64,000 nucleotides of DNA from Taiwanofungus camphoratus (Eukaryota; Basidiomycota; Agaricomycetes; Polyporales; Taiwanofungaceae): the NCBI GenBank assembly GCA_003999685.1, contig CP021228.1, positions 806,001 to 870,000 of the forward strand, read 5' to 3'. Positions 3,535 through 16,931 of this stretch are shown here, one piece after another. The notes beneath the pieces are model-generated. The model was not told where the DNA came from. It saw only the letters and a program-made list of their open reading frames with translations, and did not search any database. Position 1 is the stretch's first letter. Each line of letters opens with the position of its first letter. A program made the translations under genes and the position numbers.

Positions 3535-3939
3535 TGATATGACCTAGGGGACCCTGGTACCTAGGGAGTGCTCCGCAACGTGGCTGTGGGGTAGTGTGAT
3601 AACTGTGAGGATGTGAGGGTAGGAGCTACAACCTGTATGATACCGGGAAACCTGTATGTCTTGTTTTGTAAGTGGGGGAGTAAGGGGTCAAGGGTCCTGC
3701 ACAACAGGATCTTGTTCCTAAGTGCTATACGATCCCTAAGGCCTTGCGAGGCCCTCCGAAGTACGTGAAGTCGTTCGAGATTCTGCGAAGTCCTTCGAAG
3801 TTTTAGCTAAATCGCACAAGCTGACTTCGTAGGAGCTGTGAAGTCCTTTTAGCTAGAGTTAGCTAAAGGGCATAAGACTTAGAGGTTTGTTAGAGTGAGA
3901 TGGGTGAGGTTTAACTAGCATAGAGGACCTGTAGGAGAG
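3535..3939 (-). repeat. 3' part of a minus-strand LTR, split by the permuted element
   Basis: Reverse complement of about 13479-13952: it begins tgatatgacctagg (the LTR 3' end) and stops at gtaggagag, exactly where the LTR fragment at 15604 resumes with gag-gtcgg. The two pieces total about 1.70 kb, the length of the uninterrupted copy at 18717-20415. Confidence 0.85.
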
Positions 3940-5178
3940 ATTTACCAACTTCGGAGACGTCGTGAAGTCTTCGATGATGTGGAAGTACCCCAGCGCAGAA
4001 GGCAGGGTGCTCCTAACACGCAGTCCAATCCTAGAAACCCGCCCATAGCCAACGCACCTCCGATAGGACGCGCTCAGCATCCAGTAGTGGATCCCCCTGC
4101 TAACCAAGATGGCCCAGTGGCGGAGGCGCAGAACCAGATCCCTCCTACCATTCTAAGGCGATCCAATTATCCCTCTAATTCAGCGCCTTCACCTCTGAAG
4201 CCTGCGAATGCGTCTGATCCACCCACGAACTCATCGGAGCATGCCTCGTCTACACCTAACGTACCAGCCCAACCAGCATCACAGGCAGCCATTCCACCGC
4301 CCACTCCACCAGTACATCCTTTCGCTAGTGCTCGAGATGCTACTTATGCACCTCTGAACCTTCGAAATTTCGCAGCAGCTCTGAAGCCTACAGCAGACAA
4401 AGGCAAGGACTTGGCCTATAAGACGATCACCCCGGTTCATCAGGAGAAACTTACAGAGGAAATATTCGCGCGATCTATGAGAACACCAGTGGTTACACTA
4501 ACGCCTGATGAGCTACTATCTATATCCCCAGACGTTCGTGCGCGATATCGCGAGGCTATCACCCCTAAATGTGTGCCTATGGATCCTAAGGCTACTCATA
4601 TGGCTCAAATTACAGAACTCTCAGACGATCTCGCTTCTAAAACGACGCTAGCAACCTCCGAACTATCGTGCCACGGTGAACCCCTTGTCCCTGGTTCGAC
4701 CATCATTCCAGACCCCTACGAAACGTACTTACGACACGTACCCGGAAAGGAAGAACCCTCCGAAATCATAGTAGCCCGCGACTCGAACTCTATCCGTTCT
4801 ATCGAAGCCCTAATCGACAACAAAGAGCGAATCGAATGCATCATGGACCCTGGGTCACAAGTGGTTGCGATGTCAGAGCAAGTCTGTCATGCCTTAGGGC
4901 TAATCTACGACCCTTCCGTGCAGCTAAATATGCAGTCTGCTAATGGCAGTATTGACCGTTCCTTAGGACTGGTTCGAAACGTCTCGTTCCAAGTAGGCGA
5001 CATTGTGTTGTACCTACAGATGCACGTCATATGCAATCCCTCCTACGATATCCTTCTAGGCCGTCCCTTCGATGTGGTAACCGAGAGTGTGGTTAAGAAC
5101 TTCGGAAACGAGGAGCAGACCATCACAATCGTATGCCCGAACACGAGCGAAGTCGCGACCATCCCTACGATGCCTTGA
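3940..5178 (+). pseudogene. Gag C-terminus plus retropepsin-like protease (pol 5' part)
   Basis: Frame is open from 3940; the first in-frame GTG is at 3979 but the true start lies in gag (see 13974-15606). A Pro/Ala/Gln-rich linker covers about the first 130 residues. The aspartic protease domain follows, with active-site motif MDPGSQVVAMSE at about 4850 and the family's ILLGRPF flap-to-C-terminal motif near 5050. The common retroviral triad is D-T/S-G; here it reads D-P-G-S, which I recall as usual in this basidiomycete Gypsy group. The frame closes with TGA at 5176-5178. RT continues in the -1 frame, so either a frameshift or a mutation separates them. Confidence 0.8.
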
Positions 5179-5213
5179 GGACGTCAAAAGTTCTTACCAG
5201 CCCATCATCATAG

Positions 5214-6986
5214 TTGCCCCCACGCGAACTCTTCAAATCATTTGCGATCAGGTTTTTAGACTTCGAGGATTTGAGAAATCAAGGAGAGGTCGCCCTGGTC
5301 GTTGAGTACGAATCTGATACCCCTAAAATCGTGTCTTTCGCTGCTGTAAATGCGGCAGATAACAATTCTGTTCCTGCGCTCTATCTATCAGTCTCTAACT
5401 CTGTGTCTAGCTATCTGCAGTCTCTCTATTTTAGTGAAACTTTGAAAGTCTCGGAAGGTCCTGCTGATCATACTAGGTGGCTATCTGGCTTTCTAGCAGC
5501 AGCAACACCGCCCGAGGCTCCCTCCCTTTCGCACGATAATCCAAATTCTCTCCCTATGCTTTCGCTCTCCGCCTCTAAAGACATATCCTCTATCCCCATT
5601 CCAGGTCCCAGGAACGCTACGAAGGTCACGAAGTTAGCCCGAAGACCTTCCCTTGCTTCTAATCCGATGATATCCCTTCCTAAGTTGTCAGATTCTTCCC
5701 CTATTCCTACATTTGCAGCATCAAAAAAGAAGTACAAGCCCGTAGCGCTGAAGACTCGCCCTATTCTGGAAGCATTGGACGAACAATTCCGAATCATTCG
5801 CGAAATTAAAGGCGACCCTTTAGCGACAATGCCTACCCTATCACCGACTCCACCACCTTTCGAACCTACTTCGCGATATACGCAAGAACGGCACGATCTC
5901 ACGGACAAGCTACACAGCGGAGACTTCTTACAACCAGCAGAGAGGGACCTCCTACATCACTTTATGACCCTACACACTGATGCATTCACTTGGAATGACT
6001 CTGAAAGGGGGTGCTTCAAGCCGGAGTACTTCCCTCCTATCGACTTTCCGGTAGTACCGCACACGCCATGGGTACAAAAGAACATTCCTATCCCACCCGG
6101 AATCTACAACAAAGTGTGCACAATCATCAAAAAGAAGATCGCAGCTGGGGTCTACGAACCTTCGAATTCTTCCTATCGTTCACGATGGTTTTGTGTGGTG
6201 AAGAAAGATGGAAAGTCCCTACGCCTTGTACATAGTCTGGAACCCCTCAACGCTGTCACGATTCAACACTCAGACATTCCCCCGACTCTCGAACATCTCG
6301 CAGAACAGTTCGGAGGACGACCTTGTGGTGCTATGTTGGATCTATATGTAGGCTATGATGAACGCTTGATAGCAGAGACTTCGCGCGATCTTACAACATT
6401 TCAAACACCTTTCGGAGCTATGAGATTGGTCACTCTACCTATGGGGTGGACCAACTCGGTCCCTATCTTCCATGATGATGTTACGCACATCCTACAGCCC
6501 GAAATTCCTCACCTAATGGTTCCCTATATCGACGATGTTCCGGTCAAAGGCCCTGAAAGTTTGTACGATCTCGTACCTATTTCGGAGAATCCAGGCATTC
6601 AAAAGTTTGTTTGGGAACATTTTACGAACCTCAATAGGATAGTCACACGCATGCGCTATGCAGGAGGTACCTTTTCTGGAGTTAAAAGCATTCTAATTGC
6701 CCGCGAAATCACCGTTGTAGGGCATCGGTGTACTCCAGAAGGTCGCCTACCGGACGAGTCTCGTGTTGCAGCCATACGCAACTGGGGACCTTGTGCGACC
6801 CTATCTGACATTCGAGCCTTTTTAGGAACCATTGGAGTAGTCCGTATCTTCATCCGAAACTTCGCACATTGTGCAGATGCCTTAGTACACCTAACGCGAA
6901 AGGCAGTACCCTTCGAATTTGGTCCAGCGCAAATCACAGCGCAGGAGGACCTTAAGGATGCTTTGCTGTCCTCCCCAGCTCTCTGA
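5214..6986 (+). pseudogene. Gypsy reverse transcriptase
   Basis: Reverse transcriptase domain in the C-terminal two thirds. Visible blocks are the primer-grip/finger region (VKKDGKSLRLVHSLEPLN), LPMGWTNSVPIFHDDV, and the catalytic loop PYIDDVPVKG (YIDD, replacing the more common YxDD of retroviruses). The thumb/connection region ends at SSPAL. The first 200 residues are a Ser/Pro-rich linker. A single TGA at 6984-6986 separates it from RNase H in the same frame; the family normally has Arg about here, so CGA to TGA is the simplest explanation (inference). A TAG at 5211-5213 blocks the frame upstream. Confidence 0.85.
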
Positions 6987-6998
6987 TCCATTAACTAT

Positions 6999-7571
6999 TT
7001 GTCAGGTGCGCCCGTGATCTTAGCGGTTGACACCTCCTATATTGCAGTTGGCTATCACCTTTGCCAATGCGATGAGGACAACCCTAAAGTTCGATTCTAC
7101 AATCATTTCGGATCCATCACCCTAAATGATCGCGAGCGGAGGTTCTCGCAACTGAAGTTAGAGATCTACGGATTGTTTCGAGCACTTCGCGTACTACGAA
7201 TCTACCTAATCGGAGTTAGGAACCTTATAGTAGAGGTTGACGTACGCTATATCAAAGGGATGTTACAGAATCCGGACATCGCACCCAGCGTGAGTATAAA
7301 TCGCTGGATCGTATCGATTCTAACATTCCATTTCACCCTAGTACATGTACCAGGTACGATGCATGGACCAGACAGACTATCAAGACGAACCCCCCAGCCA
7401 GGAGATCAAGAAGAGAGCAGCGAAGAAGACTTCGAAGACTGGATAGACAAAATGCACTCATTTCTACATCACATCCAAGCCCCCCCTTCTCATCCTATAC
7501 CATCGATTTCTACCCTATTCCCTTACGAATTCGCCTCTAACATTCCTATCACAACCCCACACCTCCGATAG
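6999..7571 (+). pseudogene. Gypsy RNase H domain
   Basis: Same frame as the RT segment, just after its TGA. It shows ILAVDTSYIAVGY (first acidic residue), RFSQLKLEIYGLFRALR (the Glu helix), LIVEVDVRYIKGML (Asp), and HVPGTMHGPDRLSR at the C-terminus. It degrades the RNA strand of the cDNA hybrid. An acidic tether (EESSEEDFEDWID) follows before the frame closes. Integrase lies in the -1 frame from here. Confidence 0.85.
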
Positions 7572-7591
7572 CTCCAACCTTCGCCTCCGAG

Positions 7592-7628
7592 TTGGCTGAG
7601 GACAGCCAAGGTTTCAATAGGGAGGAGG
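7592..7628 (+). promoter_or_regulatory. Candidate central polypurine tract with 5' hairpin
   Basis: A perfect 7-bp stem (ttggctg / cagccaa) with loop agga is followed by g-gtttcaatagggaggagg. It matches 32 of 37 positions of the segment directly before the LTR (12150-12186). Four of the five differences form two compensatory base-pair swaps in the stem. The position, at the N-terminus of the integrase frame, recalls the central PPT of lentiviruses and Ty1. The priming function is inference. Confidence 0.55.
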
Positions 7629-9067
7629 AGAGCTACGATAGCGTCCCAAGATCCGAAATGGCCAAGGAAGCCGACGCAAGACTTGACGTAGTAGCAAAAT
7701 TCCTACGAAGCCTCGCGAGACCTGCCAACCTATCGGATTCAGAATACGAAGGTTTCGTAAAATACTGTCTTCTATTCTTCCTCGATGAGGACATACTATG
7801 GCGCAAAGATCCACAAGGAGCTCACAAACTAGTTGTAAAGCAGGCAGATCGTCTACGAATCCTCCGAGAATGTCACGACGCAGTCGCGCACCGAGGAATA
7901 CACACTACGAAGGTGCTGATTTCGGAGCGGTTTTGGTGGCCCTACCACCATATCGACATTGCCTGGTATGTTCGAAGCTGCCACCTATGCCAGATTCGCC
8001 AAGTGTGGCAGATCCTAATCCCTCCTACGGTCGCTACGCCCGCTCCGATCTTCGCAAAGGTTCATATAGATACCATGCATATGCCCCCTTTTAACGGATT
8101 TAGGTACTTGGTGCAAGGCCAGTGTTCTCTAACCCAGTACTCCGAATTTCGGATGCTTCACAAGGAGACGGCTAAAGCTTTGGCAGAATGGCTCTTCGAA
8201 GACTTTGTTTGTAGGTGGGGCGCGCTATCGGAGATAGTCACGGACAACGGCGCTCCCTTCGTAAAAGCTACGAACTACATAGCGAAGAAGTACCAGCTAC
8301 GACACATCCGAATTAGCGGGTACAATTTGCATGCCAACGGACTGGTGGAGAGACCTCACTTTGACGTTAGGCAGGCTCTATTCAAGGCCGTGGATGGCGA
8401 AGAGTCTAAATGGTCTCAGGCAACGTACTCAGTCTTCTGGTCCGAAAGGATCACAACTCGAAAGTGCATGGGATGTTCGCCCTATTTCGTGGTCACTGGC
8501 ACCCACCCTGTTATCCCTTTGGATGTCGTGGAGGCCACCTATATCCTTCCTCCTCCGTCCTCCATGCTATCCACGACCGATCTTATCGCACGTCGAGCTA
8601 TCACATTGCAAAAGTGGGTGACTCAGGTAGCGCAACTACATTTGAAGGTCTACAAAGCGCGAAGACAAGCTGCTCTGCGATTCGAAGAAAAGCATAAGCA
8701 CTCCATCCACGATTTCAACTTCGAAAAGGGCGATTTAGTACTAATTCGCAACACGCAGATAGAAAAGTCCCTAAATTGGAAGATGCGACCTCGCTACCTC
8801 GGCCCAGTACTCGTAGTATCTAGGAACAAAGGTGGTGCTTATATCCTATGTGAATTGGATGGTTCAGTACTCAACAGGCCTACGGCAGCCTTCCGAGTCA
8901 TCCCCTACTTAGCGCGAAAAGCTCTCGAACTTCCTACCGAACTCTTGGACGTGTCGACAGAGCGACTTCGCGAATTAGAGCTGACTACCACCCAAGGCGA
9001 TGACGAAGAACTAGGATCGTATCCCTACTCTCCTAAGTCTGACTCTAGCCCATCCGAAGCTCACTAA
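7592..9067 (+). pseudogene. Gypsy integrase
   Basis: Zinc-binding HHCC domain at about residues 90-135 (ECHDAVAHRG ... SCHLCQIRQ). The catalytic core follows, with D in HIDTMHMPPF, D in VTDNGAPF and E in NGLVERPHF, giving a complete DDE triad. A GPY/F-like C-terminal module is present (MRPRYLGPVLVVSRNKGGAY). No chromodomain is recognisable; the tail is acidic. The first codon shown (TTG) is only the edge of an open frame. The native protein should be a pol cleavage product reached by frameshift or ancestral in-frame fusion. This is the least damaged part of pol. Confidence 0.88.
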
Positions 9068-9600
9068 AGAATCAGAGGAGCAATCGACGATACCCCGACT
9101 TTAGCTAAGATTACGCTACGTCCATTTTACTTTTTGCTTACCTTTTGGTCATGTTTTACTTTCCCCAACAAGCCCCCACTCAGTTTTGATAGCTACGAAG
9201 TTCCGAATGTCTACGAATTTTTACTTACAACATCTCCTAAATTTTACTATAGGGATTCAACTCACGAAGTCGCGATATCGTTCTAAAAGCTCCTAAAATG
9301 CCAAGCAGAGCGAAGATTGCACGAGGGGCCTTAAGCCCTTCAAGGCCATGATGATTTACTGAGCCTAAACGAGCGCATTTTATCCCCCTAAGTCTTCTAA
9401 TTCATCTCTGTGTTGTTTGGTTACTTCACACTCTTAGGAACCTTTTCGCAAGGACGACGTTTGCATCCGCTACATTCAGACTAATGTACACATATTGGAG
9501 AAGGTCCCTAGCAAAGGGACGCGCAATGAGAGAGGATACAGCACGTTGGTGCGACGGATACGGAACGGGCGAGACGACGAACTATGAACCCCCCCACCTT
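9068..9600. other. Element spacer between integrase and the antisense gene
   Basis: About 530 bp, T-rich around 9120-9180 (tttactttttgcttacc). It is the shared 3' flank of pol (plus) and the antisense gene (minus), so it should hold convergent 3' ends. No open frame with recognisable content. Confidence 0.4.
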
Positions 9601-10981
9601 CTACACCTCGGCCTCGGCATCTTCCTCATCCTGCTTGGACTCGCCGGAGGGACCAGGATCGGTAGAGGAGGCGGTGACGCGATGGCGAGGAAGAGGGAGA
9701 GAACTCAAGTCAAGCGGCGCAGGTGTACGACCGGTTAGGGCGGTTTCGGCACGATAGAGCCCCGAGATGTAGTCTTCGAGACGCATCGCGCGACTTTCGG
9801 CCATCGCGCGGTCATACCAGAGGCCTTCGACAATGGCTTGATGCGCAGGGGTGAGGCCATCCAAGTATTCGGCGCCGTTAAGGGCCAGCGAGGCCTCAAG
9901 CGACATCGTAGGCGCAGGGGTCGACTTCGCCTTCTTGGGCTCGCGGGCGCGAGGCGGGGACACCTGAGGAGGTTGGCCCACAGCTAGGGGACGTCCTAAC
10001 ATCAGCAATGACGCGATAACGAGGGCGCGAGGAGCCCTACCGCGCTTCGAAACGCGCACTCCGCACTCCTTACCGTCTACAGAGAATCCACCCCAATAAC
10101 ACCCCTGCGACTCTCGCAGGCACTTACCGCACTTCACAGCACCCACAGGGAGTTCGCACTCGAAGTCGGTGGTGTAGGTGCTGCAGTGATCGCACTGGAA
10201 AGCAATAATAAGTCGCGAACAGCCACGAAAAAGAAGCATACTCACCTTCGCATGAGTTCGCCTATGCTCCGCCGCCTTCGCCATGTTAGCCAGGGCTTCG
10301 GGTGTCGGAGGAGCCTTCGCCTTCGCAGTGTCCTTCCCCTGAGTAGGAGGGACCCCTACGAAGACACCTGAACTCGTGGACGAGGCGAGTTTGCCGACTT
10401 GGCCGCTAGAAATGGAGGCCATGATTGAGCTGGCCTGGGAAGCCATGCGAGTAGAAGCTGCTGCCTTGGCCCAAGCTGAGGGACGACGAGTGTGCGATGA
10501 GGTACGACTAGGGGCCGGCGAAGGAGCAGAAGACAAAGCCGCAAGCTGGGCAGTGCGTTCAAGCGCAGCGTGCTCGGCCGCCTCCACACGAAGTCGTTCA
10601 GTCACGCGGGCGAGTTTGCGCTGTGCGTCTCGCTCTTGAAGCATAGCGGCGAACTGAGGAAAGCCAGTGCGGGCCCACGAGATCCACGATGAGTCCGCGA
10701 GAGGGAGGATCGCTGTCAAGCCTTCGACGATGGCAGCCTCTAAGGTAGGATCGGCAGGAGCGTTCGAAGCCTGGGACAGGACCCGCCAGTTACCCTATAA
10801 CGCAGTGAAGACAATGTAAGGAGCAATCGAGGAGGGTACGTACCACACGATGTCCCAAGTTCCTCGCCCACCGCAAGTAATCTTCAGCCTCCGCTACGCC
10901 CTCTGGACGAGAATCGAGGAGCGCCAGGACATCGCTGTGAGCTAGGCTAACACCATCAGAGTCCATATTGTTGATGCGCAC
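9601..10981 (-). CDS. Spliced antisense accessory gene of the retroelement, Cys-rich protein
   Basis: Four-exon model on the minus strand: 10981-10844, 10794-10246, 10194-10074 and 9995-9601. Introns are 49, 51 and 78 nt with donors GTACGT, GTGAGT and GTAAGG and acceptors TATAG, CCAG and TTAG. Exons sum to 1203 nt, an uninterrupted 400-residue frame from ATG to TAG. The N-terminus is hydrophilic; a basic, Ala/Glu-rich probable coiled-coil stretch follows (about residues 75-125). Exon 3 encodes C-x2-C-x8-C-x8-C-x2-C-x6-C. This spacing resembles the fungal Zn2Cys6 cluster but has a longer first loop and lacks its usual Lys/Arg run. The C-terminus is acidic. I do not recognise the family. Position and strand suggest an accessory or regulatory role for the element. 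An alternative is a captured host gene. Confidence 0.65.
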
Positions 10982-11222
10982 TATAGCACTCCAACCCCTA
11001 CTGGGTACGACCTAGAGAAGCTGGAAGGCTATAGAACTAGTTAGTGTGGAGGGGAGAGTCAGCAGCAAAGAGTTCCCGATCTCAAATGGATCGAGAGACG
11101 TCTACGAAGGTCTTTGACGACCTTCTACGTGTGTCGCGACTGCTCGACGTAGCTTTGATGCGCTACTATGCTGTACTATACTAGGGAGAGGCTTAAACGT
11201 GAGAACTTAGCTGATACGCAGC

Positions 11223-11411
11223 CCTTCGAAATACTGTAGAAGGCGGACTTGGGTTAGAGAGAGATGCTAGCGCAACCCTTCGATGTGGCTCGAAGGCGGA
11301 CGTAAGACTGAACGCAACTTCTTTGACGGATGTCGAAGACGGACGAGATGCAACCCTTCAGAATACTGTAGAAGGCGGATAGTAGACGCAACTCTTCGAA
11401 CGTAATCGAAG
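11223..11411. repeat. Array of five hairpin repeats upstream of the antisense gene
   Basis: Five units of about 35-50 bp share the core gcaac-CTTCGA-n-TCGAAG-rCGGA. Stems are at 11223-27/11239-43, 11277-83/11290-96, 11321-27/11332-38 (one G-T pair), 11355-59/11371-75 and 11394-99/11406-11. They lie about 240-430 bp 5' of the antisense ATG, a promoter or leader position. Related hairpins occur in the old copy at about 2975-3095. Confidence 0.6.
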
Positions 11412-12149
11412 ACGGAAGGACGCAGTAGGACGCAGTAGGTGACTAAATCGAAGGTGCTCTTCTTGAGCTCTGTAGGATGGGGGAAAACTTCTCTGTTGTT
11501 CCGAGACACCATACATCGCGTTTATACTACTGTACTATAATGTAAGGCGCATCGGGAGTGGCATAGTACGAGTGGCATCCTAACTACTTGCGTACTACGA
11601 ACTATGGAGTGGCCTGTAGAGGGAGTGGCTACTTGTCGTCACTAGAAAGGCTGAAACAAAGGAACATACATGAAATATACTAAGACAAGACCTGGGGCCG
11701 TAGCGTTATCGAGTACATCAAGTGGCGCATCGTAGCAAATCGAGCGATATCGGAGTGGCGAGACCGGTCACATGCGAGGACATTGAGTGGCAACTGCGTG
11801 TGGCGTATTGTGCGTAGAGGGACCGGCACACCGGAACATCGGACCGGAACTGGCGGAGTGGCGGTGGCATGATTCGAGGCTATCAGAGAGTCCCGCGGTG
11901 GCTTTTCGGGCTGTATCGGACACGTCGAGTGGCGTCGAAGCCATGACTAAGGTCCTAGGGTCGAGTGAGGGCGCTCCGCGGGGCCTAGAAGGGCCTGGTG
12001 CCTATCATCGTCAAACATGATGGGGAAAGGAAAGGCAAAAGGGGGGGAAGGAGAAAAAGATAAGAGGCACCCACGATTAGCTTCTATCAGGATATCGCCC
12101 GCTTCACGGATCGGACGCGATAGGCTACAAATTCCCACAGTCGCGCACA
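11412..12149 (+). other. Element 3' untranslated region
   Basis: No convincing gene. Segment 11774-12017 recurs in diverged form at 18200-18450, marking it as a regular part of the element's 3' internal region. The word gagtggc recurs many times between 11553 and 11930 (for example near 11552, 11566, 11600, 11620, 11754 and 11785). A TATA-like tactataatgtaagg lies near 11530. Confidence 0.5.
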
Positions 12150-12186
12150 CTGACTGAGGACAGTCAGGATTTCAATAGGGAGGAGG
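12150..12186 (+). promoter_or_regulatory. Hairpin plus 3' polypurine tract
   Basis: Stem ctgactg / cagtcag with loop agga (12150-12167), then a tract ending aatagggaggagg at 12186, directly against the LTR start TGATGAG at 12187. It is the expected plus-strand primer site of the element. The hairpin is shared with 7592-7628 through compensatory changes. Confidence 0.75.
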
Positions 12187-13952
12187 TGATGAGTCCCGTA
12201 GCCTCCTGGGCCCTGAATCGCGATTTTAGAAGCTTTCTAATCCCCCAACCGACCACTCTAAGACTCTTCTACAGCCTACAACAGGAGGGATAAATCCCTA
12301 TAATATTCCTAATGCCCCCTTTCCTTCCTAAACCCTCCTAACACCCTACAAAGTCTTGCGAAGTCACACGAGGTGCTACGAGGTTTCGAATGCTAGATGC
12401 GAAGTCCCTAACTCCTGCTAAGTCCACTATCGGACACTGCCGGCCCTCCCATACTGTTCCATTGGATCTAGGTCCTATCTACTACGTCACTCATCCCGGG
12501 CTTAGCTAAGAAGTCTTAGCTAAGTCTCTCCTAGCTCTTGTGATTGCAGCTACCTCTGATAGGCTCCGAAACGGTCCGAAGTTCTGGAAGTTGGACTTAG
12601 GAAGCCTTGTGCACCCCCATGGGTCTCGATCCTATGCCATAAGATCATCCTAGGGCGTATCCATATGGCCCTCCACCCAGTTAGGACACCTCCTACCCCG
12701 ATTAGGCCAAGTCCCGCTGCTAAGAACTTTGTGCGCTCTTAGCCCACTAAGATAGGTGATCACGGCGTATGGCTGCTCTCGGATAGTCATCCCGCCCTCG
12801 TGAATGAAGTTGGTCACCTTTCTACCATATGTAGTTCCCCTGTTTCAGTTCCTAATTAGTTCCTATCCTCCTCGTGTTCACTTCGGAGTCCATGCGCTTT
12901 AGTACACATTTCGGACTCATAGGGATCACTTCGCGCAAAAATAGTTCACCTCACGCTCCCCTATTTAGTCAGAGGTAGTTTACTATGTAAGAGAGAGACC
13001 CCTCAGTGCACGCTTCTCTCTTTGGAATACAAGTTCCCCTGTAGCTCCAATCTCAGGAAAGCGTCGCAAGTACAACCTTAGGAATGGTCCTAAGGCCCCT
13101 AAGTCTCCACCCCAGCTCCGTTTCAGTACCTTTGAACTACGTCTACGCTCGTGATATATCTACGAACCACGTCTACGCTTCCCGAACTACGCACTACGAT
13201 CTACGAAGTCGCCGTGACTTCGCGCCCTTCAGCACCTCTTATAGCACCTATCCGGTGGGCCTCCACCTTAGTTATACCCTTAGGCTCACGTTGCGTCATT
13301 CCTACGTCCTACGAATAACCCTACAACTCCCCCATAGCCTTCATTTCAGGCTATAGCACCTCCCTCTACGCCCTCGAACTCTCCGACCCACACCTCGAAG
13401 TCATCAGACACTTCAGAGCTTCCAGCAACCTCGTTCCCCCATTCCTATTCCAAGTATTAGCTGTCCGAACCATCCGACCTCTCCTACAAGTCTCCTATGC
13501 TAGCCAAACCTCGCCCACCTCGCTCTAACAAACCTCTAAGCCTTACGCCCTTTAGCTAACTCTAGCTAAAAGGACTTCGCAGCAGTCTCGTACCCTCTGC
13601 CGCTTAGTAGAAATTATAGTCCATTGGCTTATTGCTCCCTAACTCTATACAGCCTACGAAGTCAGCTCGCGCGATTTAGCTAAAACTTCGAAGGACTTCG
13701 CAGAATCTCGAAGAACTCCGCGTACTTCAGAGGGCCTTGCAAGGCCTTAGGGATCGTATAGCACATAGGAATAAGATCCTGTTGTGCAGGACCCTTGACC
13801 CCTTACTCCCCTATTTACAAAAACAAGACATACAGGTTTCCCGGTATCATACAGGTTGTAGCTCCTACCCGCACATCCTCACAGTTATCACACCACCCCA
13901 CAGCCACGTCACGGAGCACTCCCTAGGTGCCAGGGTCCCCTAGGTCGCATCA
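12187..13952 (+). repeat. LTR of the permuted element (full length, 1766 bp)
   Basis: Begins TGATGAG after the polypurine tract and ends cgcatca four bases before the primer-binding site, so it serves as both 3' and 5' LTR, as in a one-LTR circle. It contains palindromes CTTAGCTAAG at 12501-12510 and 12515-12524 and further TTAGCTAA sites at about 13551-13570 and 13676. Nearly identical over its first 1.3 kb to the minus-strand LTR at 15604-16898. It has about 65 bp (around 13590-13655) that is missing from the other copies. The 90-codon frame at 13084-13356 is not considered a gene. Confidence 0.85.
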
Positions 13953-13956
13953 TTTC

Positions 13957-13973
13957 TGGAGCCCACCGCGGGG
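13957..13973 (+). promoter_or_regulatory. Primer-binding site
   Basis: TGGAGCCCACCGCGGGG starts four bases after the LTR end. It begins with TGG, complementary to a tRNA 3' CCA, as expected for minus-strand priming. I cannot assign the tRNA without a tRNA list for the species. Confidence 0.65.
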
Positions 13974-15606
13974 GGGAGCAGTCAAGATTTCATTGCCTTC
14001 AGATTATCCTACGTCTAACCAGTCCTCTCCGAGAAACAGCGATCAGTTACTATCCGAGTTCTTTCAGGTCGGCTATCGTTACTACACTCAAGCAGGCCTT
14101 CCACGAAGCACCTCTTCGCGAACACCTACAACTATCCCCTCCAATATCATTTCTACACTCGAATCTTCTCAATCGACCCCCGACTTTGAGGCTCTTTTTG
14201 AAGGGTCTCTAGACACGCTTACCACGTCCGAAGACTCACCAATTGAGGACTTCAAACCTCAGTCCACGTCCCCTGAGCTTCCTAACACCTCCGAAGAAAG
14301 CGGTCCTTCTTCAGTGTCTGACCCTATCTTAGTCCATTTACCAGAATCCCCTCAGCTATCCTCTATGCCTCCATCAACTTCGTGTTCCCCTCCAATTCCT
14401 TCTATTACACTTTCCGACGCTTCTACGTCCCAATCCTCTTCAGCTAGCATCAACTCAGCTTCAAACCCATCTCTGACCACACCCACTTTAGCTAATCCCC
14501 TAAATTCTATTTCTGTGTCAACCATGAACGCACCTCCACTCATGCCACCTCGAGGAGATTGTACATCCCCCACCTTCGATCCTGACCAGCCTAGGACCAT
14601 CTGAAGGTATTTTCAGGACTTAGAGTCGCTTTTTGTCCGCTGCCAGATAGCGGATGAGGCAACAAAGAAACACTGGACTACTCGCTACCCTCCTATCGAT
14701 GTTTCGGACCTATGGGAGTCCCTCCCTGAGTGTTCCGATGTCACGAAGACCTACGAAGACTTCAAGAAGGAGATTAGAAGCCTCTACCCAGGCACAAAGG
14801 ACGATAGAATGTGGTCTATGTCTGACTTGGATCAGTTGATAGGAGAACGTGCTAGAATTGGAATCAACAATGCGGCAGACTTAGGAAGCTTCTATTGTGA
14901 GTTTTATGCCATCACAAAGTATCTAATTTCGAAGAATAGGTTGTCTACCATCGAGCAAAGCCGTGCTTTCACGAGGGCCTTCCAGCCTTCACTATGGGCT
15001 CGCGTGTCTACTAGGCTACAGCTAAAGTTCCCTGATCACTTACCCGATGATCCCTACACCTTGGACCAGCTACATAGCGCAGCGAAGTTCGTACTCCTTG
15101 GTACTTCTACGACTCTTACCTCTGCTACGACTGTAACTACTTCGACCACTGCCGTGCCCGTAGGGGGCTCATCGCTAAAGATAGAGGATCTACAGACGTT
15201 CGCAGAGATCCTCACGAAGTCCGTAACCAGTGCGCTAGCCTCTGTTCTTGCGAACCAGCAACCCCCCCGATTGGACAGTTCGCGCAGCGAGCACACCCAT
15301 GTAGAAGGCCAGTACTGTCACTATTGCGGGGACTTGGACTGCTGCACTAGGTGTTGCAAGCACATTGAGCAAGACATCAAGGATGGCAAGTGCAAGTGCA
15401 ACCCAGATGGAAAGATAGTACTGCCAAATGGAAATTTCGTACCCAGAACGATCCCAGGACGTACGATTTGCGATAGGCTTTACGAATATCATTGACGAAA
15501 TGGCACAAATTCCTCCCCACAGCTCCTATTCGAAATCGACAATCGCCTAAGTGTGCCCGCATTCTCACTATCCGCCGAGGATCGTATAGCCACTTTAGAA
15601 CACGAG
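13974..15606 (+). pseudogene. Gypsy gag (N-terminal part, up to the permutation breakpoint)
   Basis: One frame throughout. A Ser/Pro/Thr-rich leader is followed by a likely start at ATG 14524 (MNAPPLMPPRGD), as I recall for the family. The capsid-like core includes RYFQDLESLF and SRAFTRAFQPSLWARV. A knuckle-like CHYCGDLDCCTRCC has Cys where the usual CCHC His would be. Two in-frame TGA codons (14602-14604 and 15493-15495) interrupt it; both fit CGA to TGA. The last residues, from about 15550, form a coiled-coil start that continues at 3940. Confidence 0.75.
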
Positions 15607-16898
15607 GTCGGAGGGTTTGGAGAGCTAATACTTGGGATAGAAATTGGAGAACGAGGTTGCTGGAAGCTCTGAAGTGTCTGATGGCTTTGAGGTGTGGGTC
15701 GGAGAGTTCGAGGACGTAGAGGGAGGTGCTATAGCCTGAAATGAAGGCTATGGGGGAGTTGTAGGGTTATTCGTAGGACGTAGGAATGACGCAACGTGAG
15801 CCTAAGGGTATAACTAAGGTGGAGGCCCACCGGATAGGTGCTATAAGAGGTGCTGAAGGGCGCGAAGTCACGGCGACTTCGTAGATCGTAGTGCGTAGTT
15901 CGGGAAGCGTAGACGTGGTTCGTAGATATATCACGAGCGTAGACGTAGTTCAAAGGTACTGAAACGGAGCTGGGGTGGAGACTTAGGGGCCTTAGGACCA
16001 TTCCTAAGGTTGTACTTGCGACGCTTTCCTGAGATTGGAGCTACAGGGGAACTTGTATTCCAAAGAGAGAAGCGTGCACTGAGGGGTCTCTCTCTTACAT
16101 AGTAAACTACCTCTGACTAAATAGGGGAGCGTGAGGTGAACTATTTTTGCGCGAAGTGATCCCTATGAGTCCGAAATGTGTACTAAAGCGCATGGACTCC
16201 GAAGTGAACACGAGGAGGATAGGAACTAATTAGGAACTGAAACAGGGGAACTACATATGGTAGAAAGGTGACCAACTTCATTCACGAGGGCGGGATGACT
16301 ATCCGAGAGCAGCCATACGCCGTGATCACCTATCTTAGTGGGCTAAGAGCGCACAAAGTTCTTAGCAGCGGGACTTGGCCTAATCGGGGTAGGAGGTGTC
16401 CTAACTGGGTGGAGGGCCATATGGATACGCCCTAGGATGATCTTATGGCATAGGATCGAGACCCATGGGGGTGCACAAGGCTTCCTAAGTCCAACTTCCA
16501 GAACTTCGGACCGTTTCGGAGCCTATCAGAGGTAGCTGCAATCACAAGAGCTAGGAGAGACTTAGCTAAGACTTCTTAGCTAAGCCCGGGATGAGTGACG
16601 TAGTAGATAGGACCTAGATCCAATGGAACAGTATGGGAGGGCCGGCAGTGTCCGATAGTGGACTTAGCAGGAGTTAGGGACTTCGCATCTAGCATTCGAA
16701 ACCTCGTAGCACCTCGTGTGACTTCGCAAGACTTTGTAGGGTGTTAGGAGGGTTTAGGAAGGAAAGGGGGCATTAGGAATATTATAGGGATTTATCCCTC
16801 CTGTTGTAGGCTGTAGAAGAGTCTTAGAGTGGTCGGTTGGGGGATTAGAAAGCTCCTAAAATCGCGATTCAGGGCCCAGGAGGCTACGGGACTCATCA
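15604..16898 (-). repeat. 5' part of the split minus-strand LTR
   Basis: Reverse complement of 12187 to about 13478, nearly identical, ending at TGATGAG (16898). It is joined at 15604-15606 (GAG) to gag of the permuted element. Together with 3535-3939 it restores one LTR. No polypurine tract flanks its 5' end, and the flanks of the restored LTR (gacgc / gcggc) do not form a clean target duplication. Confidence 0.85.
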
Positions 16899-16931
16899 GC
16901 GGCATCCCTTCCACACCTTACTTACCCAGAT

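Follow-up and report, generated by a model that had tools for sequence, protein, structure and literature searches.

HBZ of HTLV-1 is an antisense accessory gene located on the 3' LTR side of the virus, which is spliced and encodes a bZIP repressor. In fungi, an antisense gene of the Boty-like elements, brtn, was reportedly described by Zhao et al. in 2011. Excerpts of two further papers present brtn as an antisense gene of a Gypsy element of the ascomycete Botrytis cinerea (PMC8365987, PMC4227169), and part of a third cites the HBZ protein as nuclear (PMC11963269). Antisense genes located between pol and the 3' LTR, termed aORF-3R, are known from the plant elements Grande (gene23), RIRE2, Retand (ORF4) and PvRetro13; in the passages of a review that deal with them, transcription of Grande gene23 starts from a promoter of its own and the protein is nuclear, and the functions of the aORF-3R are called unknown (PMC7264820).

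The gene analyzed here is carried by an element of the basidiomycete Taiwanofungus camphoratus, designated F1; it is antisense to pol, lies between pol and the 3' LTR, is multicopy and is conserved. It shares its place, orientation, presence in many copies and pol-like constraint with the aORF-3R of maize Grande, rice RIRE2, Silene Retand and PvRetro13, and differs from them in its fungal host and apparently in its three conserved introns. In Retand, as far as excerpts on that element tell, a TRP28 domain is common, in contrast to the six-cysteine motif of the F1 gene, and the word "intron" does not occur in the available part of the Retand paper (PMC11963269). The likeness to brtn is one of description, and that gene has an ascomycete host. 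The likeness to HBZ is also one of description, a bZIP protein standing against a cysteine motif. A literature search, conducted at the level of listings and largely outside subscription journals, retrieved no basidiomycete antisense gene of a Gypsy or other LTR element. What is new is a basidiomycete member of the aORF-3R with three conserved introns backed by codon-level evidence, a six-cysteine motif and a host-locus homologue.

The carrier element

The searched T. camphoratus assembly comprises 33.2 Mb in 15 contigs, and the available portion of the genome paper describes a burst-like expansion of Gypsy elements (PMC8865532). The window is the whole stretch of 64,000 nucleotides that was analyzed (C9:806001-870000), and coordinates given without a contig refer to it. 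LTRs together with protease, reverse transcriptase (RT), RNase H and integrase in the expected order identify the carrier as a Ty3/Gypsy LTR retrotransposon, the parts of which, with one foreign insertion, are found in the window as follows.

3919..5178, plus strand: open frame with the aspartyl protease domain (PF13650, E 2.7e-8)
5214..6986, plus strand: RT part of pol, closed by a stop in the window copy (assigned by position; YIDD motif by eye)
6987..7571, plus strand: RNase H part of pol (PF17917, E 9.7e-11)
7541..9067, plus strand: integrase part of pol, convergent with the antisense gene (PF17921, E 5.4e-15)
10972..12007, minus strand: solo LTR of family F4, 1.04 kb, inserted within the first codons of the antisense gene
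12187..13952, plus strand: F1 3' LTR, repeated on both flanks of the internal region in other copies
13953..15606, plus strand: 5' internal (gag-side) part of F1, joined to position 3937 in other copies

Comparison of the window with eight other genomic regions gave the layout of F1, which runs from an LTR (as in 12187-13952) through the gag side (13953-15606), pol with the antisense gene (3937-10968) and about 180 bp (12007-12187) to the other LTR. The RT region (5214-6986) has no Pfam RVT match at E <= 1, unlike the protease, RNase H and integrase, which reflects either a divergent RT lineage or damage in the window copy. The F4 solo LTR is flanked by TTGT and TCGT, which is interpreted as a target duplication of 4 bp in which one base has changed.

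The window copy of F1 (3535-16899) is circularly permuted, in the order pol, antisense gene, LTR and gag side, and sits within an inverted F1 LTR split at its position 13480, as would result from the insertion of a one-LTR circle into an LTR. Within pol, a 39-nt stretch (7593-7631) is 87% identical to 12151-12189 at the 3' polypurine tract, the likeness extending to AATAGGGAGGAGG and to a short hairpin whose changes are paired; this stretch is a possible central polypurine tract. On another contig, C10:627326-659921 (L009-L013) holds four F1 antisense genes that all point the same way at intervals of 10468, 10469 and 10468 bp, and is a tandem array of near-identical elements.

Exon-intron structure and selection

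The minus-strand frame that a sequence-only reading of the window had noticed between integrase and the 3' LTR runs for 397 codons without a stop (10794-9601), and in 2000 order-1 Markov shuffles of the region such a length was never reached in any of the six frames (longest 327). Exon 1 lies in a phase different from that of this frame. The gene is organized as follows, all features being on the minus strand.

10844..10966, minus strand: exon 1, ATG at 10966-10964 (copy alignment and codon-position pattern; same join in public models P0001 and P0003)
10795..10843, minus strand: intron 1, 49 nt, GTACGT..TTATAG (GT 35/35, AG 35/35, L033 excluded)
10246..10794, minus strand: exon 2, N-terminal helical part and low-complexity linker (near-far omega-like 0.339)
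10195..10245, minus strand: intron 2, 51 nt, GTGAGT..TTCCAG (GT 36/36, AG 35/36)
10041..10194, minus strand: exon 3, six-cysteine motif at 10194-10099 (exon end set by P0003)
9984..10040, minus strand: intron 3 as corrected, 57 nt, GTAGGG..CCCTAG (GT 34/36, AG 36/36; matches P0003)
9601..9983, minus strand: exon 4, basic patch, helical hairpin, acidic tail and stop (near-far omega-like 0.409; helices modelled with confidence)

The counts refer to an alignment of 36 sequences, namely the window and 35 copies taken from the genome matches to the frame, of which 30 are close (window included, 28 distinct) and five divergent, and in which L033 lacks the 5' part of the gene. Throughout this alignment the GT and AG sites of the three introns are retained save three exceptions; at the acceptors the base preceding AG alternates between C and T while AG itself is kept, the intron 2 acceptor forms an in-frame TAG in 19 of the 30 close copies, and branch-point-like CTTAT (intron 2) and CTGAT or CTAAT (intron 3) are visible by eye. 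Splice-site conservation and P0003 bear out introns 1 and 2 of the sequence-only reading (10843/10795 and 10245/10195), and its join of HAK to CDHC is present. Its third intron, at 10073/9996, was wrong at both ends, the acceptor reading TAA in seven of the 36 aligned sequences and P0003 coding through the donor. An intron at 10073-9984 was dropped as well, as P0003 keeps coding past 10073 and resumes at the position matching 9984; the stretch 10073-10041 varies in a pattern intermediate between coding and intron. Judged from the aligned sequences and the model, intron 3 is best placed at 10040-9984, so that the four exons of that reading stand and its 400-residue product becomes one of 402.

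The public model P0003 (AcV5_005875), an entry representing three sequences, has introns 1 and 2 and the third join in common with the homologous gene L035, in which the third intron starts with GC by eye and is an apparent GC-AG intron. P0001 agrees with the proposed intron 1 and exon 2 end and departs thereafter, and P0002 has the proposed intron 1 acceptor with an earlier donor. According to the available part of the genome paper, the prediction pipeline behind these models used RNA-seq, which does not in itself prove reads at these introns (PMC8865532).

The genome contains at least 60 near-full-length matches to the F1 antisense gene (60 of 104 scored among 126 candidates), defined as starting at codon 1 or 2, reaching codon 397 and being at least 89% identical. 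A convergent integrase adjoins 56 of these 60 at a distance of 537-543 bp, and is found beside three of nine intermediate and 16 of 35 weak matches (540-1395 bp). For unpaired matches the integrase may be absent or missed, because many candidates remained unscored: L057, one of those unpaired, lies beside pieces of RT, RNase H and integrase that share 65-81% identity with those of the window, and of 11 integrase matches lacking an antisense match the one inspected (L067) does carry the gene. The observation that gag and pol have stops and the antisense frame has none holds for the window copy and fails for the family, in which a 1284-codon frame with no reported stop holds 26 of 85 scored integrase matches (354 candidates) and nine of the 30 close antisense copies are interrupted by a stop or have lost a splice site. 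If spliced, 21 of the 30 close copies are intact, against seven open if unspliced; six of six divergent copies are damaged. In-frame stops recur in separate copies at spliced codons 96, 108 and 220, either from shared descent or from mutation hot spots.

Near-far divergence of the spliced frame is 0.130, 0.096 and 0.313 at codon positions 1, 2 and 3, and in the introns 0.306, 0.302 and 0.319, similar to the third codon positions. Between subfamilies the spliced frame has an omega-like ratio of 0.362, indicating purifying selection, and the other antisense frames of exon 2 give 1.6-2.0. Treated by the same method, integrase gives 0.397 and part of RT 0.261, so that the antisense gene (0.33-0.48) is constrained in the range of pol (0.26-0.40). 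Comparison of the aligned copies thus shows codon-level purifying selection on the predicted protein. An origin of the open frame as a by-product of chance or of a plus-strand coding frame is hardly credible: the plus-strand frame in the shared third-position register also has low values (0.48 in exon 2, 0.46 in exon 4), but it has stops within both exons, none of the shuffles produced such a frame, and the splice sites are conserved on the minus strand. Selection for an antisense RNA instead of a protein, for instance as double-stranded RNA that would silence the element, is very improbable; antisense transcripts of plant elements have been discussed as silencing RNA in passages of PMC7264820, yet the selection seen here tracks codons and ends at intron borders.

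A protein gene with introns can persist in such an element because the RNA copied during retrotransposition is the sense strand, in which the antisense introns are not introns. By the same reasoning, their presence implies that the antisense transcript would be separate from the genomic RNA.

The predicted protein

The product is predicted to consist of N-terminal helices, a long helix, a low-complexity linker, the six-cysteine motif, basic patches, a helical hairpin and an acidic tail. The motif, C-x2-C-x8-C-x8-C-x2-C-x6-C, keeps all six cysteines in each of 10 aligned domains, and the pattern is present in 32 of the 34 loci L029-L062 (absent from L037 and L038), though interrupted by a stop in L043 and L062. 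The spacing of Gal4-type Zn2Cys6 domains is C-x2-C-x6-C-x5-12-C-x2-C-x6-8-C, from which the antisense motif deviates in the second spacer alone, with eight residues instead of six between cysteines 2 and 3. Both have six cysteines, among them two C-x2-C pairs, and six residues in the last spacer; in the F1 motif, moreover, cysteines 2 and 3 enclose no stretch of basic residues, and there is no profile similarity. There was no match to Pfam Zn_clus (PF00172) at E <= 10 with the 391-residue spliced model or with 10 domain sequences; the former search and some of the protein searches used this earlier model, which is short of 11 residues after the motif. An hhalign comparison with five Zn2Cys6 domains gave a probability of 1.2%. 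Two AlphaFold2 models (mean pLDDT 51.2 and pTM 0.32; mean pLDDT 65.6 and pTM 0.37) are confident for the helices only and fall below 50 across the cysteines. The Zn2Cys6-like cluster of the sequence-only reading is thus retained as a six-cysteine pattern, and Gal4-type homology finds no support in Pfam or hhalign.

The putative function is read from the motif alone, and own transcription and a regulatory role are plausible. Transcription of the antisense gene would start at a promoter within or next to the 3' LTR and run towards pol, and the host would splice the transcript. The product may be a nuclear protein that regulates or supports its own element and combines a basic patch with a putatively metal-binding six-cysteine module and a helical segment for pairing; metal binding, nuclear location and regulation are all suggested by sequence features. 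Alternatively, the protein might be real but have its target outside transcription, in the particle, the pre-integration complex or import into the nucleus. Such roles have been discussed, in passages of a review, for plant antisense proteins whose role is unknown (PMC7264820), the cysteine module is not a recognized DNA-binding family, and the protein is constrained about as much as pol. We regard this alternative as rather unlikely, as a separate host-type transcript, the basic patch and the two C-x2-C pairs would fit a nuclear nucleic-acid-binding protein at least equally well.

Homologues in other families and at a host locus

Homologues with the same six cysteines are found antisense in two further families, F3 (L057, L037 and L068) and F4 (L055, L056, L058-L062 and L067, with L056 and L059-L062 assigned by the cysteine domain alone). 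They are 16-30% identical to F1 in the rows compared, whereas the integrase matches of F3- and F4-type elements reach about 62-72%, and therefore the antisense protein changes faster between families. The distance from the near end of the LTR to the start codon is about 180 bp in F1 and about 250 bp in F4 (252 bp in L058). A preference of the F4-type solo LTR for the antisense start was considered and dropped: an F4-type LTR lies at a like distance before five F4 genes (984-1047 bp from the cysteine match, same strand) and is therefore the 3' LTR of F4 itself. In L067 it lies by eye only 19 bp from the ATG, probably through deletion.

A stand-alone intact homologue, L035, is found at a host locus (with L063 and L064; C3:1158980-1167900). 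In its flanks of 5.0 kb and 2.5 kb no match to gag or pol falls below E 0.79, and there are neither DNA matches to the other genomic regions compared nor repeats around the gene. It lies between a gene with the RNA12 domain (PF10443, E 1.3e-17 and 4.8e-9) and a 672-residue frame with FG-like repeats that has no Pfam match. L035 is 34-44% identical to F1 and 20-30% to F3 and F4, and groups with F1 against F3 and F4 (86/89 support) in an unrooted tree with long branches flagged; it is possibly a domesticated or an ancestral gene. The latter would make L035 the source, its copy having been taken into the element as genomic DNA with introns included. The isolated position of L035, with flanks free of pol and gag matches, and the introns of its model P0003 in the same places agree with such a capture. 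However, T. camphoratus was the only named species matched in protein searches of limited sensitivity (shared 5-residue words, with at most 8000 candidates scored), and domestication of an F1-like gene would explain equally well, in the unrooted tree, why L035 is closest to F1. Capture from the host is thus doubtful, though not negligible.

At the level of sequence comparison, the data show a four-exon structure, codon-level selection, the same place and orientation in three families, and a homologue at a host locus; copies and public models together give strong support to a protein gene that is spliced, antisense and part of a Gypsy element. In our judgement the probable explanation is a genuine three-intron protein gene, antisense between pol and the 3' LTR of a Gypsy lineage and acting as proposed above. 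The narrower picture, in which a Gypsy lineage carries a spliced, nuclear, zinc-cluster-like antisense regulator with a free-standing host version (L035/P0003), is a tentative one that we would not expect to hold in full. If true, element and host would hold rival copies of one regulator. The three conserved introns are a built-in sign of separate, host-type transcription. Many copies, 21 of the 30 close ones intact, and a homologue at a host locus make two questions testable in a fungus for which genomes and RNA-seq are public: whether the protein is a regulator or a helper, and whether the gene was captured or domesticated.
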